This document shows, one piece after another, positions 18,915-54,675 of a stretch of 64,000 nt of DNA. Positions within the stretch are counted from its first letter, which is position 1, and every line of letters begins with the position of its first letter. The stretch is taken from NCBI GenBank assembly GCA_022844045.1, contig JALHMM010000023.1:1-64000 (forward strand), in the 5' to 3' direction. Source of the stretch: Reyranellaceae bacterium. GTDB lineage: Bacteria; Pseudomonadota; Alphaproteobacteria; Reyranellales; Reyranellaceae. The notes below the pieces were generated by a model. That model was not told the origin of the DNA and did not search any database. It saw only the letters and a list, made by a program, of their open reading frames with translations. A program made the position numbers and the translations under genes.

Positions 18915-21900
18915 ATGGGCTCGATGAACATCACCAGGCGCGGTGCGCTGAAGCTGACAGCCGCGAGTGTGGGCGCCTCGACGCTCACCGCGCTGGGCTT
19001 CTCGCCGGCGCAGGCGCAAGGCGCGGTGCGCGCCTTCAAGCTCGATCGCACGACCGAGACACGCAACACCTGCCCGTACTGCTCGGTGGGCTGCGGCGTG
19101 ATCATGTACTCGGTGGGCGATCGCTCGAAGAATGTCACCGGCAAGATCATCCATATCGAGGGTGATCCCGATCATCCGACCAACCGCGGCACGCTCTGTC
19201 CCAAGGGCGCCGGGCTGATCGATTTCATCAACGCCAAGACGCGCCTGCAGTACCCCGAGTACCGCGCGCCCGGCGGCAAGGAGTGGAAGCGCATCTCCTG
19301 GGACGAGGCGATCGACAAGATCGCGCGTCACGTCAAGGCCGACCGCGACAAGAACTTCATCGCCAAGAACGCCGATGGCCAGACGGTGAACCGCTGGCTG
19401 ACGACCGGCTTCCTGGCGGCCTCCGCGACCACCAACGAGACGGCATGGATCACCTACAAGGCGGTGCGATCCATGGGGATGGTCGTCTTCGATAATCAGG
19501 CGAGGGTTTGACACGGTCCGACGGTGTCCAGTTTGGGCCCGACTTTCGGACGCGGTGCGATGACGAACCTGTGGGCTGATATCAAGAACACGGATCTCGT
19601 CGTGATCATGGGCGGCAACGCCGCCGAAGCGCATCCCTGCGGCTTCAAGTGGGTGACGGAAGCCAAGCACCACAAGAAAGCCAAGCTGATCGTGGTCGAT
19701 CCGCGCTTCACGCGCTCGGCGGCGATGTCGGATCTCTTCATCCAGATCCGGCCGGGTACCGACATCGCCTTCCTGGGCGGCGTCATCAAGTACCTGCTCG
19801 ACAACGACAAGCTGCAGAAGGAATACGTCCTCAACTACACCAACGCGGCCTACATCCTGCGGTCCGACTACAAGTTCGAGGACGGCCTGTTCTCGGGCTA
19901 CGACGAGGCCAAGCGCGACTACAACCGCGCCAGCTGGGAGTACGAGTTCGGCGACGACGGCTTCGTCAAGGCCGATACGACCCTGCAGGATCCGCGCTGC
20001 GTCTTCCAGGTGATGAAGGCGCATTTCTCGCGCTACACCCCTGAAATGGTCGAGCGCATCACCGGCGCGGCGAAGGACAAGTTCCTCGAGGCGTGCAAGT
20101 GGATCGCCGAGACGTCGGCGCCCGACAAGGTGATGACGTCGATGTACGCGCTGGGCTGGACCCAGCACTCCAAGGGCTCGCAGAACATCCGCACCATGGC
20201 GATGATCCAACTGCTGCTGGGCAATATCGGCTTGGCCGGCGGCGGCATGAACGCGCTGCGCGGGCACTCCAACATCCAGGGCCTGACCGATATCGGCCTG
20301 ATGAGCAACCTGATCCCCGGCTACCTGACGTTGCCGACGGACGCGCAGGCCGACTTCGCGGCCTACATGCGGCCGCGCGGCTTCAAGCCGCTACGGCCCG
20401 GCCAGACCAGCTTCTGGCAGAACTACGACAAGTTCTTCGTCTCCTTCATGAAGGCGATGTGGGGCCCCGCGGCGACCAAGGAGAACGACTGGGCCTACGA
20501 CTATCTGCCCAAGCTCGACGTCGGTTCCTACGACGTCCTGCGCGGCTGGGAGATGATGCACCAGGGCAAGATCAACGGGTACTTCTGCCAGGGCTTCAAC
20601 CCGCTGATGTCGTTCCCCAACCGCCGCAAGATGCAGGCGGCGATGGAGAAGCTGAAGTTCCTCGTCGTCATCGACCCGCTGGCCACCGAGACCAGCGAGT
20701 TCTGGCAGAACCACGGCGAGCACAATCCGGTCGACCCGGCGAAGATCCAGACCGAGGTGTTCCGTCTGCCGACGACGGTATTCGCCGAGGAGAATGGCTC
20801 GCTGGTCAACTCGGGTCGTTGGCTGCAGTGGCACTGGAAGGGCGCCGAGCCGCCGGGCGAAGCGATCACCGACATCGAGATCATGGCGAAGATCTTCCTG
20901 AAGGTGCGCGAGCTGTATCGCAAGGAAGGCGGCGCCTTCCCCGATCCGATCGTCAACCTGACCTGGGAGTACGAGAACCCGGCCTTCCCGAATCCGGAGG
21001 AACTCGCGCGCGAGCTCAACGGCCGCGCGCTGGCCGACGTGCCCGATCCGCGCGATCCGGCGAGGTTGGTCCTGCGCAAGGGTCAGCAGCTCTCGGGCTT
21101 CGGCGAGCTGCGCAACGACGGCGCGACCATGGGCGGTTGCTGGATCTACTCCGGCTGCTGGACCGAGGCGGGCAATCAGATGGCGCGACGCGACAACACC
21201 GATCCGGGCGGTCTCGGGCTCACGCCGAAATGGGCGTGGTCGTGGCCGGCCAATCGCCGCATTCTCTACAACCGCGCTTCCGCCGACGCGAAGGGCGATC
21301 CCTTCAACCCGAAGCAGAAGCAGATCTGGTGGAACGGCGAGCGTTGGACCGGCTTCGACGTGCCCGACTACGGGCCGTTGGTGAAGCCCGAAGCCAGCGT
21401 CGGTCCGTTCATCATGAACCAGGAGGGAACGGCGCGGCTGTTCACCCGGGGCATGATGCGCGACGGACCATTCCCGGAGCACTACGAGCCTTTCGAGGCG
21501 CCGGTGGCCAACGCGCTGCACCCGAAGGTCGGACCTAATCCAGTCGCCCGCGTCTTCAAGGGCGATATGGAGCAGTTCGGCAAGGCCAGCGACTTCCCGA
21601 TCGTCGCCACGACCTATCGCCTCACCGAGCACTTCCACTTCTGGTCCAAGCACGTGCGCATCAACGCGAGCACGCAGCCCCAGGAGTTCATCGAGCTCGG
21701 CGAGGAACTGGCCAAGGAGAAGGGCATCTCGAGCGGCGACCTGATCGAGATGCGCTCCAACCGCGGCCGCGTGAAGGCCGTCGCCGTTGTCACCAAGCGC
21801 ATCAAGGCGCTGAAGATCGACGGCAAGATGGTGCACACCGTGGGCATCCCGCTGCACTGGGGCTTCACCGGCGAAACCAAGAAGGGCTTCGGCTGCAACC

Positions 21901-48423: not shown

Positions 48424-49901
48424 AGTTGTGTGCGTCAAGTTCAGCAGAAGGGCGATGTGGCCAGTGGTCATGACGGCGGGCTCGTCCCGGTAGTCCACAG
48501 GGGCCTGCCGTGCGCGCCGCGAAGCGAGCTGCGGACTCCGGCGCAGCGGCGCGCGCGGCGGGTACCTGTGGACCCACCGGGGCGAGAGGACGAGGTGTCG
48601 GCGGCGCTCATGCGGCCTGCCGCAGCATCTGCTTCTGATGCTCGCGCAGGTGCTCCATGTTGAGGTAGCGAGGGCCCTCGAGCCAATTCTCGTGCGTCTC
48701 GGCCGCCAGAGCCCGCACCAGGCGCAGGCAACTCTGCGCGTGCGGGAAGATGCGCACCACATGGCTGCGCCGCTTGATCTCCTGGTTGAGCCGCTCGAGC
48801 ATATTGGTCGACTTCAGGTGCTTGTGGTGCGGCAGCGGCAGCCGGTAGTAGCTCAGCGTCTCCTCGATGTTGTCCTCGACCCAGGCGGTGAGCTTGGGAT
48901 ACTTGCCCTGCCACCTGGCGAGCCAGGTCGCGATGTCGCGCCGAACCTCGCCAAGCTCGCGCCGGTCGTAGAACCAGCGCAGCTCCTGCAGGCAGTCGTC
49001 GTCGACCTTGCGCGGCACGTAATCGAGCGCGTTCCTCAGGAAGTGCACGTAGCAGCGCTGCCACACCGCCTCGGGCAGCGCCTCGCGGATCGCCGCCTTC
49101 AGCCCCGCATGATTGTCGGAGACCGCGAACTGCACGCCGTGCAGGCCGCGCCGGCGCAGCCCGACCAGAAAGTCCTTCCAGCTCGAGCGGCTCTCGCGAT
49201 TGGCCAGCTCCACCGCCAGGATCTGGCGACGGCCTTCCCAGTCGATGCCGATCGCCACCAGCACCGCCTGGCTGACGATCACCCCGCCCTCGCGGATGCG
49301 CTCGTAGCGCGCGTCGAGGATCACATAGGGATAAGCGTCGTCCAGCCGCCGCTCGGCGAACGCCCGCAACCCTTCGTCCAGCGTCCGATTGATCGCGCTG
49401 ATCGAGGACGCCGAGAACTCATGTCCGCACAGCTCCTCGGTCACCGCCTTGACCTTGCGCGTCGAGACGCCCTGCACGTACATCTCCGCCAGCGCCGCCA
49501 CCAAGGCCTTCTCCGAGCGCTGGTAGCGCTCGAACAGCGCCGTCGAGAACCGACCCTCCCGGTCCTGCGGCACCCGCAGCTCCAGCGTCCCCACACGGGT
49601 GATCAGGTTGCGCTCGTAGTAGCCGCTGCGGTAGCCCCGCCGCCCCGCCGTGCGCTCGCTTTTGGCCGCTCCCAGCGCCTCCGTCATCTCCGCCTCGAGC
49701 GCCGCTTGCACCACCCGCTCCACCAGCGGCCGCAGAAAATCCTCTTCCGCCGACAGCAGCGCTTTCACATCCAGCAGCTCCGGCTTACCTTCCTTCTTGG
49801 TCATGGCGTGCTTCCTTTCCACAGGATCGGTGACGTCGAACATCACCAACATGCCATGGCCACCGGCTTCTCGCCGTTTGCTGAACTCCCCGCACACTAT
49901 C
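48424..49901 (-). mobile_element. IS256-family insertion sequence, about 1478 bp
   Basis: One transposase gene lies between inexact terminal inverted repeats. The left end reads AGTTGTGTGCGTCAAGTTCA; the right end in reverse reads GATAGTGTGCGGGGAGTTCA. Both flanks carry CCGCTGCG (48416-48423 and 49902-49909), an 8-bp target duplication as usual for IS256. The element lies inside a dispersed palindromic repeat. The complete transposase and matched ends suggest a recent, possibly active insertion. Confidence 0.9.
48608..49804 (-). CDS. IS256-family (mutator-type) transposase
   Basis: A 398-residue DDE transposase that looks complete. Catalytic residues are expected at Asp164 (VILDARYERIREGG), Asp230 (FAVSDNHAGLKAAI) and Glu337 (STNMLERLNQEIKRR). 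The C-x2-H type motif CYVHFLRN (about 251) also fits the family. The ATG at 49804 is used; upstream in-frame codons to 49924 would run out of the element. Confidence 0.93.
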   Translation of the reverse strand: MTKKEGKPELLDVKALLSAEEDFLRPLVERVVQAALEAEMTEALGAAKSERTAGRRGYRSGYYERNLITRVGTLELRVPQDREGRFSTALFERYQRSEKALVAALAEMYVQGVSTRKVKAVTEELCGHEFSASSISAINRTLDEGLRAFAERRLDDAYPYVILDARYERIREGGVIVSQAVLVAIGIDWEGRRQILAVELANRESRSSWKDFLVGLRRRGLHGVQFAVSDNHAGLKAAIREALPEAVWQRCYVHFLRNALDYVPRKVDDDCLQELRWFYDRRELGEVRRDIATWLARWQGKYPKLTAWVEDNIEETLSYYRLPLPHHKHLKSTNMLERLNQEIKRRSHVVRIFPHAQSCLRLVRALAAETHENWLEGPRYLNMEHLREHQKQMLRQAA

Positions 49902-49933
49902 CCGCTGCGCGGCCTCCTCAGCATGAGGTTGGT
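49902..49933. repeat. Right part of the split dispersed repeat
   Basis: CCGCTGCGCGGCCTCCTCAG followed by CATGAGGT continues the repeat interrupted at 48423. It also codes the last residues of the GIY-YIG gene on the minus strand. Confidence 0.85.
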
Positions 49934-51886: not shown

Positions 51887-52213
51887 CTACTTCGACTCTT
51901 CCATCACCTGCTTCTTGGCCTCGTCGATGAGCTTATCCATCTGCTTGCGCACCGCGCCGGCATCGGCCGGCTTTCCAGCGGCGCCAAGGTCGGCCAGCAC
52001 CTTCTGCAGCACGTCGTCGTCGCCGGCCTTCTCGAAGTCGGCCATCACGACTTCCTTGGCGTAGGCGTCGGCGTCCGGGCCGGCCTTGCCGAGCTGCGCG
52101 GCGACCCACTGGCCGAGCAGGCGGTTACGCCGGTTGTTGACCTTGAACTGCAGGTCCTGGTCGCGCTTGAACTTGTTCTCGAAGGCTTTTTCCCGCTCGT
52201 CGAAAGTGCTCAT
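51887..52213 (-). CDS. F1-ATPase inhibitor subunit zeta (DUF1476)
   Basis: A 108-residue helical protein of the alphaproteobacterial zeta family, which blocks ATP hydrolysis by F1 when energy is low. The N-terminus MSTFDEREKAFENKFKRDQD is the inhibitory segment, followed by LQFKVNNRRNRLLGQW. The ATG at 52213 gives the family N-terminus. The family is almost restricted to Alphaproteobacteria, which supports the assignment of the organism. Confidence 0.92.
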   Translation of the reverse strand: MSTFDEREKAFENKFKRDQDLQFKVNNRRNRLLGQWVAAQLGKAGPDADAYAKEVVMADFEKAGDDDVLQKVLADLGAAGKPADAGAVRKQMDKLIDEAKKQVMEESK

Positions 52214-52328
52214 CGCGATCCGTCTCCCATGGTCCGTCCGGCGGTTTCGCCGAGCACGGTATATAGCGTCGCCAGTGGGCATTCGCCACCCTGCGTGGCA
52301 GAGTGTTCGGCAAACGGGAGGAAACGGC

Positions 52329-53183
52329 ATGAGTGACGATCTGGCGACCTACCGCCAATGGATCGGACGGGGCGAGACGCGCGAGGATTTCGCGGCCCCT
52401 TTTCCACCGCATGCGCTGATCCAGACCTTTGACACCGGCGATTCCCGCCTGAAGACGGGCGATACGCTGCCGCCGCTGTGGCACTGGCTGTACTTTCTCG
52501 ACACCACGCCACGCTCCAAGCTGAGCCCGGACGGGCTGCCGGGCCGCGGCGACTTCATGCCGCCGGTGACCTTGCCCCGACGCATGTGGGCGGGCAGCCG
52601 GTTCACCTTCCATGACGCGCCGCTGAGGCTCGGCGACACGCTGCGCCGCGACTCGGCGATCGCCGCCATCGAGGGCAAGAGCGGCAGCACCGGCGAGATG
52701 GTCTTCGTCACCGTGCGCCACCGCATCTCCGGCGCCGCCGGGCTGGCGGTGGAGGAGGAGATCGACGGTGTCTATCGCGAGGCGGCCAAGCCGGGCGAGG
52801 TGCAGAAGGCCGGCCGTCCGGCGCCGACCGACCCGACCTGGAGCAAGACGATCAAGCCCGATCCGGTCCTGCTGTTCCGCTTTTCGGCGCTGACCTTCAA
52901 CCCGCACCGCATTCATTACGACCAGCCCTACGCGACGACCACCGAGGGCTACCCAGGCCTGATCGTGCACGGGCCGCTGATGTGCCTGCTGCAGGTCGAG
53001 CTGGCGCGCCGCTCGGTGCCGGATCGCAAACTGAAGAGCTTCGCGCTGCGCGCGCTGGCGCCGGTCTACGACCAGGCGCCCTTCGACGTGCAGGCGCGGC
53101 GCGAGGCCGACGGCTCGGTGACGACCTGGATTCGCGATCCGCACGGCGCGATGGCCCAGCAGGGCAAGGCGGTCTTCGCATGA
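52329..53183 (+). CDS. FAS1-like (MaoC-related) hydroxyacyl dehydratase, copy 1
   Basis: A 284-residue hotdog-fold protein of the mesaconyl-C4-CoA/3-methylfumaryl-CoA hydratase type. N-terminal half: LPPLWHWLYFLD and DFMPPVTLPRRMWAGSR. C-terminal half holds the hydratase segment HRIHYDQPYA with EGYPGLIVHGPL. GGGAGG lies 6 nt before the ATG. Its stop overlaps the next start (ATGA). The acyl-CoA substrate is not visible. Confidence 0.8.
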   Translation: MSDDLATYRQWIGRGETREDFAAPFPPHALIQTFDTGDSRLKTGDTLPPLWHWLYFLDTTPRSKLSPDGLPGRGDFMPPVTLPRRMWAGSRFTFHDAPLRLGDTLRRDSAIAAIEGKSGSTGEMVFVTVRHRISGAAGLAVEEEIDGVYREAAKPGEVQKAGRPAPTDPTWSKTIKPDPVLLFRFSALTFNPHRIHYDQPYATTTEGYPGLIVHGPLMCLLQVELARRSVPDRKLKSFALRALAPVYDQAPFDVQARREADGSVTTWIRDPHGAMAQQGKAVFA

Positions 53184-54123: not shown

Positions 54124-54675
54124 ATGCCGCTTGTATCCGAAGTCACCGAAGACGGTGGCGATCCCGTCCTGAGCAAGATCTTCGCGCGCCAGCGCGAGAT
54201 GTTCGGCGATCTGCTCAATCCCACCAAGGTGATGGCGCATTGTCCGCCGATCCTGGAGGCGTCCGCCCGCCTGAGCGCGGCGCTGGAGCAGTCCAACCGT
54301 CTGCCTGCCGGTTTGCGCGCGTTGCTCTATCTCAGGGTGGCGACTATCAACGGCTGCCCCTTTTGAATGGACATCAACGCATCACGTGTGATGCAGGCTG
54401 AGAAGAACGGCGAAGAGAAGATGCGGAACGTCGCGCGCTGGCGCGACGCCCCGATATTCAGCGAGTCCGAGCGCCTGGCGCTGGAATTCGCCGAGAAGGC
54501 GACCATCACCGGCCAGCGGGTCGAGCCGGAGCTGATCGGCAAGCTGAAGAAGCACTTCGACGACGCGCAGATTGTCGAGCTGTCGGCGGCCGTGGCGCTG
54601 GAGAATTTCCGCAGCAAGTTCAACGTACCGCTGGGCGTCGAGGCCCAGGGCTTCTGCATTATCCCGGCGCGTTGA
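54124..54675 (+). CDS. AhpD-like (carboxymuconolactone decarboxylase family) protein, probable selenoprotein
   Basis: A 183-residue protein read through an in-frame UGA at 54364-54366. Before it the protein reads LRALLYLRVATINGCPF; after it MDINASRVMQAEKNGE and WRDAPIFSESERLALEFAE, all one family. The UGA sits exactly where the second Cys of the AhpD CxxC site should be, so the active site reads Cys78-Pro-Phe-Sec81. A perfect hairpin with the right spacing follows. CxxU AhpD-like selenoproteins are known from surveys. This genome also makes a selenocysteine formate dehydrogenase. The alternative, a nonsense mutation or two short genes split at the motif, fits less well. Position 85 is Asn, where AhpD has His. 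Confidence 0.85.
54379..54394 (+). promoter_or_regulatory. SECIS-like hairpin of the AhpD-like gene
   Basis: GCATCAC and GTGATGC pair perfectly around GT. Counted from the U of UGA as 1, the loop G and U are at 23 and 24, the same as in the formate dehydrogenase element at 19523. There is no bulged U at position 17. Confidence 0.75.

Follow-up and report, generated by a model that had tools for sequence, protein, structure and literature searches.

Does the open reading frame (ORF) at positions 54,124-54,675 of a 64,000-nucleotide stretch of Reyranellaceae bacterium DNA (contig JALHMM010000023.1, positions 1 to 64,000; hereafter the window) encode a selenoprotein, or is it a gene broken by a stop codon? 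The frame, on the forward strand, begins with an ATG at 54,124 and ends with a TGA at 54,673-54,675, and is crossed at codon 81 (54,364-54,366) by another TGA, after which 102 sense codons follow; the coordinates of this arrangement in an earlier note, made from the sequence alone, proved exact. Read through, the coding sequence specifies an AhpD-like protein of 183 residues with selenocysteine (Sec) at position 81 in a CPFU motif (our working sequence, P0001, carries one extra residue from the terminal TGA read as Cys). Under translation table 11 the locus yields ORFs of 80 residues (54,124-54,366) and 102 residues (54,367-54,675), and ordinary gene finders would probably cut the gene in two at the UGA. 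We put at roughly 0.9 the probability that 54,124-54,675 is the gene of an oxidoreductase with Sec and the AhpD/CMD fold, its UGA being decoded by way of a downstream hairpin. That the gene specifies a selenoprotein at all, as the earlier note had proposed, appears nearly certain from the comparisons described below: an invariant UGA, a co-varying hairpin, a tRNASec and SelB in the same genome, low substitution ratios on both sides of the UGA, and the fold.

Orthologues were sought in 193 genomes, the source genome included, and 75 of these gave a match at E ≤ 1e-20. Seventy genes reached E ≤ 7.7e-60; they lie in 69 genomes (G053 holds two), comprising 68 of the 75 genomes of the family and one genome of another family (G131), while the remaining six matching genomes have only genes of 33-37% identity that lack the stop. 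Each of the 70 close orthologues contains exactly one internal TGA, and in 70/70 it stands at the place of Sec81. A second scan, conducted on genome contigs and overlapping the first set, retained 80 of 99 relatives (the 19 others stand outside the counts), and the TGA was found at the same place in 80/80. Relative to two members of the same genus, the ratio of nonsynonymous to synonymous substitution rates (dN/dS) for the codons before the UGA was 0.07 in one comparison and 0.16 in the other, and for those after it 0.12 in both, indicating that purifying selection acts on the protein sequence of the second part. These data bear directly on the possibility that the locus is a pseudogene whose UGA arose by nonsense mutation of a Cys codon. 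One relative (L088/L166, described below) does look damaged 3' of the UGA, but the conservation of the UGA in both sets refutes such an explanation, and the dN/dS of about 0.12 behind it and the co-variation of the hairpin tell against it too; we do not regard a pseudogene as credible, and its chance is minute.

The palindrome GCATCAC-GT-GTGATGC (54,379-54,394) starts 12 nt after the UGA. It had been described as a perfect 7-bp hairpin; the palindrome is present, but since a 2-nt RNA hairpin loop is too tight, a 6-bp stem (54,379-54,384 with 54,389-54,394) closing a CGUG loop (54,385-54,388) is the better reading as RNA. If the U of the UGA is taken as nucleotide 1, G and U of the loop (54,386-54,387, forward strand) occupy positions 23 and 24. 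By reading, G and U likewise lie at 23-24 in the Sec insertion sequence (SECIS) 35 kb away at 19,506-19,564 (forward strand), the other Sec site of the window and our yardstick, which matches SECIS_3 (Rfam RF01989) at 73.2 bits against a gathering score of 63; the parallel drawn in the earlier note is thereby borne out and the hairpin at 54,379-54,394 may be called SECIS-like, the name formate dehydrogenase for that gene being the note's own label.

For the co-variation analysis, the 70 loci were reduced to an ungapped alignment of 65 distinct sequences, with duplicates entered once and L088/L166, which has a deletion in the hairpin, left out. A 7-bp stem around the G23/U24 loop was paired in 88.6% of cells, and shifted registers reached 54.3% at most. 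Five pairs showed changes on both sides, with 71 such cells compared with 18.8 in shuffled alignments, none of 500 shuffles scoring as high. In seven sequences, those from the window genus and from the Vineibacter group, the register is off by one base (GCATCA-CGTG-TGATGC), and these were scored as unpaired in this alignment. With no register imposed, stems of 6 bp or longer were found in 67/70 loci, G23/U24 in 68/70 and both in 66/70; the exceptions were two 5-bp stems (L076, L084), a GG in place of GU (L082) and the deleted region of L088. As a control we scanned a further 9,668 codons in these genes, which are related and not independent; 466 were followed by such a stem and four satisfied both criteria. 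The pattern at the UGA is far from what chance would give. Among the 80 loci of the second scan, the stem was present in 75 and GU at 23-24 in 68. Of the five loci lacking the stem at its usual place, two from Rokubacteria (L172, L179) have their hairpins, of 9 and 6 bp and with a GGUCU loop, displaced by one codon away from the UGA, L129 and L141 show by eye one stem mismatch each, and L166 is the locus with the deletion.

The hairpin also bears on whether the locus is a naturally split protein, that is, two polypeptides made by translational coupling across TGA-ATG. An ATG does directly follow the UGA in the window and both halves are open frames, yet the next codon is ATG in only 25 of the 70 orthologues, with ATT, ATC, ATA, ACC or GTC elsewhere. 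Coupling would moreover leave unexplained a co-varying hairpin at the distance used by SelB and the position of the UGA exactly on the second Cys of the CxxC motif. We judge a split protein highly improbable, and the selenoprotein reading is retained in what follows.

Decoding of the UGA would depend on the selenocysteine machinery, and both a tRNASec with a UCA anticodon and SelB (466 bits) were identified on a single contig (C85) of the source genome. SelB is present in 72/75 family genomes at E ≤ 1e-60, so that its co-occurrence with the gene within the family says little. Outside the family, SelB was found in 16 of 118 genomes, one of which (G131) carries the gene, and the gene occurs in none of the 102 genomes without SelB. 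The G131 copy (L052, L097), from a genome of another alphaproteobacterial family, is 62% identical and has the UGA; SelB, selA, selD and tRNASec were all found in its genome, and it may perhaps have arrived by horizontal transfer. A further 25 carrier genomes bear titles of Rokubacteria or of other proteobacteria, and 22 of these scored over the SelB cut-off.

Several observations weigh against the selenoprotein reading, some of which concern the hairpin. At positions 23-24, GG is found in nine, GC in two and CC in one of the 80 loci, so U24 is not universal. Folded as a single sequence, 54,360-54,410 had a z of -0.25 and a somewhat different pairing, 74 of 200 shuffles being as good or better, and RNAalifold on the ungapped alignment recovered three inner pairs only, at -0.87 kcal/mol; both results count against an argument from stability. 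Because the window hairpin stays below every Rfam gathering score, the evidence for it must be comparative, and the case for it is one of comparison, not of stability. In one relative (L088 = L166, VBAF01000424) the UGA is kept and the hairpin has been removed by a deletion just 3' of it, reflecting either decay or an assembly error. The gene itself is not universal, as no match to it was found in seven of the 75 family genomes, and gene neighbours of the orthologues vary between clades and give no help from context. As for the machinery, the selABCD set that the earlier note had looked to was recovered in part: selB and tRNASec were found, but selA and selD were not over the cut-offs in the source assembly (6.4 Mb, 144 contigs, 92% complete, 5.8% contaminated). 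Upstream of selB, contig C85 runs out after about 160 bp. In 5/5 selB neighbourhoods of relatives, selA precedes selB in the same orientation and no more than 0.8 kb away, and selD lies about 3.7 kb upstream in G003 (about 17 kb in G002); selD was over the cut-off in 8/9 genomes, the source genome being the miss. Since both genes lie on that side of selB in relatives, a contig break could explain the two gaps and probably does. Finally, two carriers (G033, G054) are without SelB at 1e-60 and three of the 25 further carriers are without an over-cut-off match, which we take to be assembly gaps.

What kind of protein the gene encodes was addressed through family models, a structure model and aligned relatives. 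The protein scores 39 bits against Pfam PF02627, the CMD/AhpD superfamily (gathering cut-off 23), and the AhpD fold was found for its structure model. More specific models were not reached. TIGR00778 (AhpD core domain) gave 20.1 bits, below its curated cut-off of 27.8, which two of eight other clade members passed (L179 at 29.9 and L125 at 30.1 bits). TIGR01926 (peroxidase-related enzyme) gave 43.9 bits, below its cut-off of 81.8, which eight further clade members also failed to reach. The best NCBIfam match, near full length, was to NF053654 (GroundWater_YciW, a YciW-related (seleno)protein) at 115.9 bits, below its cut-off of 310, with eight other clade members at 129.6-154.1.

Residue counts were made over 79 Sec and 26 Cys sequences, leaving out L166 and L168; the Cys set also excludes L002 and L003, which gave no tblastn match; L003 itself contains an in-frame TGA (see below). 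The UGA aligns with the second Cys of all 26 Cys relatives and of PA0269, the nearest full-length Cys relatives being about 41% identical. Cys78 (54,355-54,357), the first residue of CPFU and the predicted resolving Cys, is invariant (79/79 and 26/26), and Cys178 (54,655-54,657), in the C-terminal QGFC motif, is Cys in 79/79 Sec and 23/26 Cys sequences. R71, D83 and E152, like the QG(F/L)C motif at the C-terminus, are mostly common to the Sec clade and the Cys relatives, whereas at the places of the Sec clade's E160 and R163 the Cys relatives have Q (25/26) and S (24/26). E. coli YnjA (L209), like the other Cys relatives, has a CxxC aligned with CPFU; it differs in having Cys, with 36% identity and Thr at +4. 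The Pseudomonas aeruginosa AhpD-family proteins (7xw1; PA0269, structures 2ijc and 2o4d) have a shorter N-terminal part, and PA0269, aligned through 2ijc and 2o4d, has Cys instead of Sec and His at +4. AhpD proper is marked by a CxxC followed at +4 by His, together with a Glu relay. No His is found at that place in the Sec clade; the codon at 54,376-54,378 specifies Asn85, and Asn is present in 79/79 Sec sequences. The replacement of the usual His had been noticed at the outset and linked to a possible difference in chemistry. The Asn is there; it is, however, not peculiar to this protein, as 23/26 Cys relatives share it, and it is a mark of the subfamily which by itself is no argument for different chemistry.

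The fold and the CxxU motif make redox chemistry at this motif likely, and a Sec-only thiol/selenol oxidoreductase with a CPFU site is the explanation we favour. In the mechanism we propose, SelB with Sec-tRNASec would read the codon-81 UGA as selenocysteine under the direction of the downstream hairpin. Sec81, in place of the second Cys of AhpD, would then be the attacking nucleophile. Once a hydroperoxide or another electrophile had oxidised it, Cys78 would resolve the oxidised residue as a selenenylsulfide, from which a thiol donor would regenerate Sec81. That a hydroperoxide is the natural substrate, a suggestion drawn from the same features, is a tentative assignment to which we give slightly less than even odds. 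AhpD-type CxxC proteins also serve as thiol-disulfide partners. The protein could accordingly be a disulfide reductase or a lipoyl- or thiol-linked carrier and not a peroxidase, a possibility with about one chance in three; the title of structure 1knc mentions thioredoxin-like activity, and fold and motif fail to separate the two functions. Sec-dependent reductive dehalogenation, or another electrophile-reducing activity as in the homologue Bmp8, is improbable: PA0269 and Atu0492 are nearer in sequence and fold, and none of the eight neighbouring ORFs scanned suggests halogen chemistry.

How widely the Sec form occurs, and whether it has a Cys counterpart, was assessed by broader sampling. Among the loci of the second scan, 18 are titled Rokubacteria or Rokuibacteriota, some are titled Betaproteobacteria, and other proteobacterial metagenome-assembled genomes (MAGs) are included as well. 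By record title, carriers include Reyranella massiliensis 521, Reyranella soli, Reyranella aquatilis, Vineibacter terrae and Enhydrobacter aerosaccus; MAG titles such as Klebsiella, Asaia, Rhizobium and Burkholderiales among the carriers are probably wrong names. Neither a sample of 398 genomes from the phylum nor one of 385 from the class yielded a full-length match in the identity range from about 41% to 59%, and the matches at or below 41% in these samples have no stop; one locus (L204) matches at 47% over residues 58-173 only and has no stop. No close Cys version of the gene was found in this sampling, the full-length Cys relatives beginning at about 41% identity. In a tree that used 40 of 81 Sec sequences (the window and 39 of the 80), these 40 formed one group with support of 100/99, long branches being a caveat to this grouping. 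Two weak matches (L191 and L192, at 38% and 34%) have a TGA of their own but are members of a different clade. The window clade thus appears to be Sec-only at this sampling. A bolder proposal is that an obligate-Sec clade without a Cys counterpart, whose members occur in Reyranellaceae, Rokubacteria and some further proteobacteria, does what Cys AhpD proteins cannot, for example reducing halogenated or otherwise poor electrophiles in a Bmp8-like reaction carried out by selenium; taken as a whole, we hold this to be a long shot.

AhpD-like CxxU selenoproteins have been known as a kind since 2005, and their occurrence in bacterial surveys, stated in the earlier note, agrees with the literature. 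Published work describes 27 sequences from the Sargasso Sea (PMC1088965), others from sequenced bacteria (PMC1794560) and, as AhpD-like 1 in the Global Ocean Sampling (GOS) survey, 299 Sec and 902 Cys sequences (PMC2398784); such proteins are also tabled in reviews (PMC9312934, PMC13188914). With the known group (COG2128 / TIGR01926) the window protein shares the CxxU and a predicted hairpin downstream of the UGA (PMC1088965, PMC2398784, PMC9312934, PMC13188914). It differs in that the surveyed sets include many Cys homologues (PMC2398784), whereas for the window clade no full-length Cys version above about 41% identity was found. The window gene is an unnamed branch of a known kind, the published AhpD-like sequences having been compared by description only. 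Within the open-licence literature, we found no papers on such selenoproteins in Reyranella or Rokubacteria. The bacterial selenoproteome would gain an apparently Sec-only clade without a family model of its own, and a gene presumably split by standard callers would be corrected in soil and freshwater bacteria, cultured strains among them. Because the Cys versions are distant, the clade would also offer a clean case in which to ask what an AhpD-fold enzyme gains from selenium.

The lineage may use selenium in the AhpD fold more than once, since the source genome holds a further CxxU candidate on another contig (C26; L003:1441-1998), outside the window. This AhpD-like frame, a weak paralogue of the window gene, has an NCYYU motif with His at +4. 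The gene was detected in nine of 61 genomes searched, its own included (L217-L225), with at least 69% identity besides its own copy, and one TGA lies at the same place in 9/9. By eye, a short hairpin (GCTC-GGTCG-GAGC or similar) follows the TGA, its GU lying some three bases more distant than that of the window gene; in L003 a strict scan detected a 4-bp stem only. This gene is a member of another AhpD-like group.

Two Reyranella-family genomes also hold a different AhpD-like CxxU protein, with NGCEFU or NGCPFU motifs (L191:501-974 in G050; L192 in G045). It scores 233-253 bits against NF053654, below that model's cut-off, and by eye a 6-bp hairpin follows its UGA. A Cys version of this protein, with NGCEYC, is present in G053 (L193). 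Elsewhere in the window, on the reverse strand, a 438-residue ORF at 48,608-49,924 presumably resembles a mutator-type transposase, and the frame at 51,887-52,330 encodes an ATPase inhibitor subunit zeta (Pfam PF07345, 134.6 bits).
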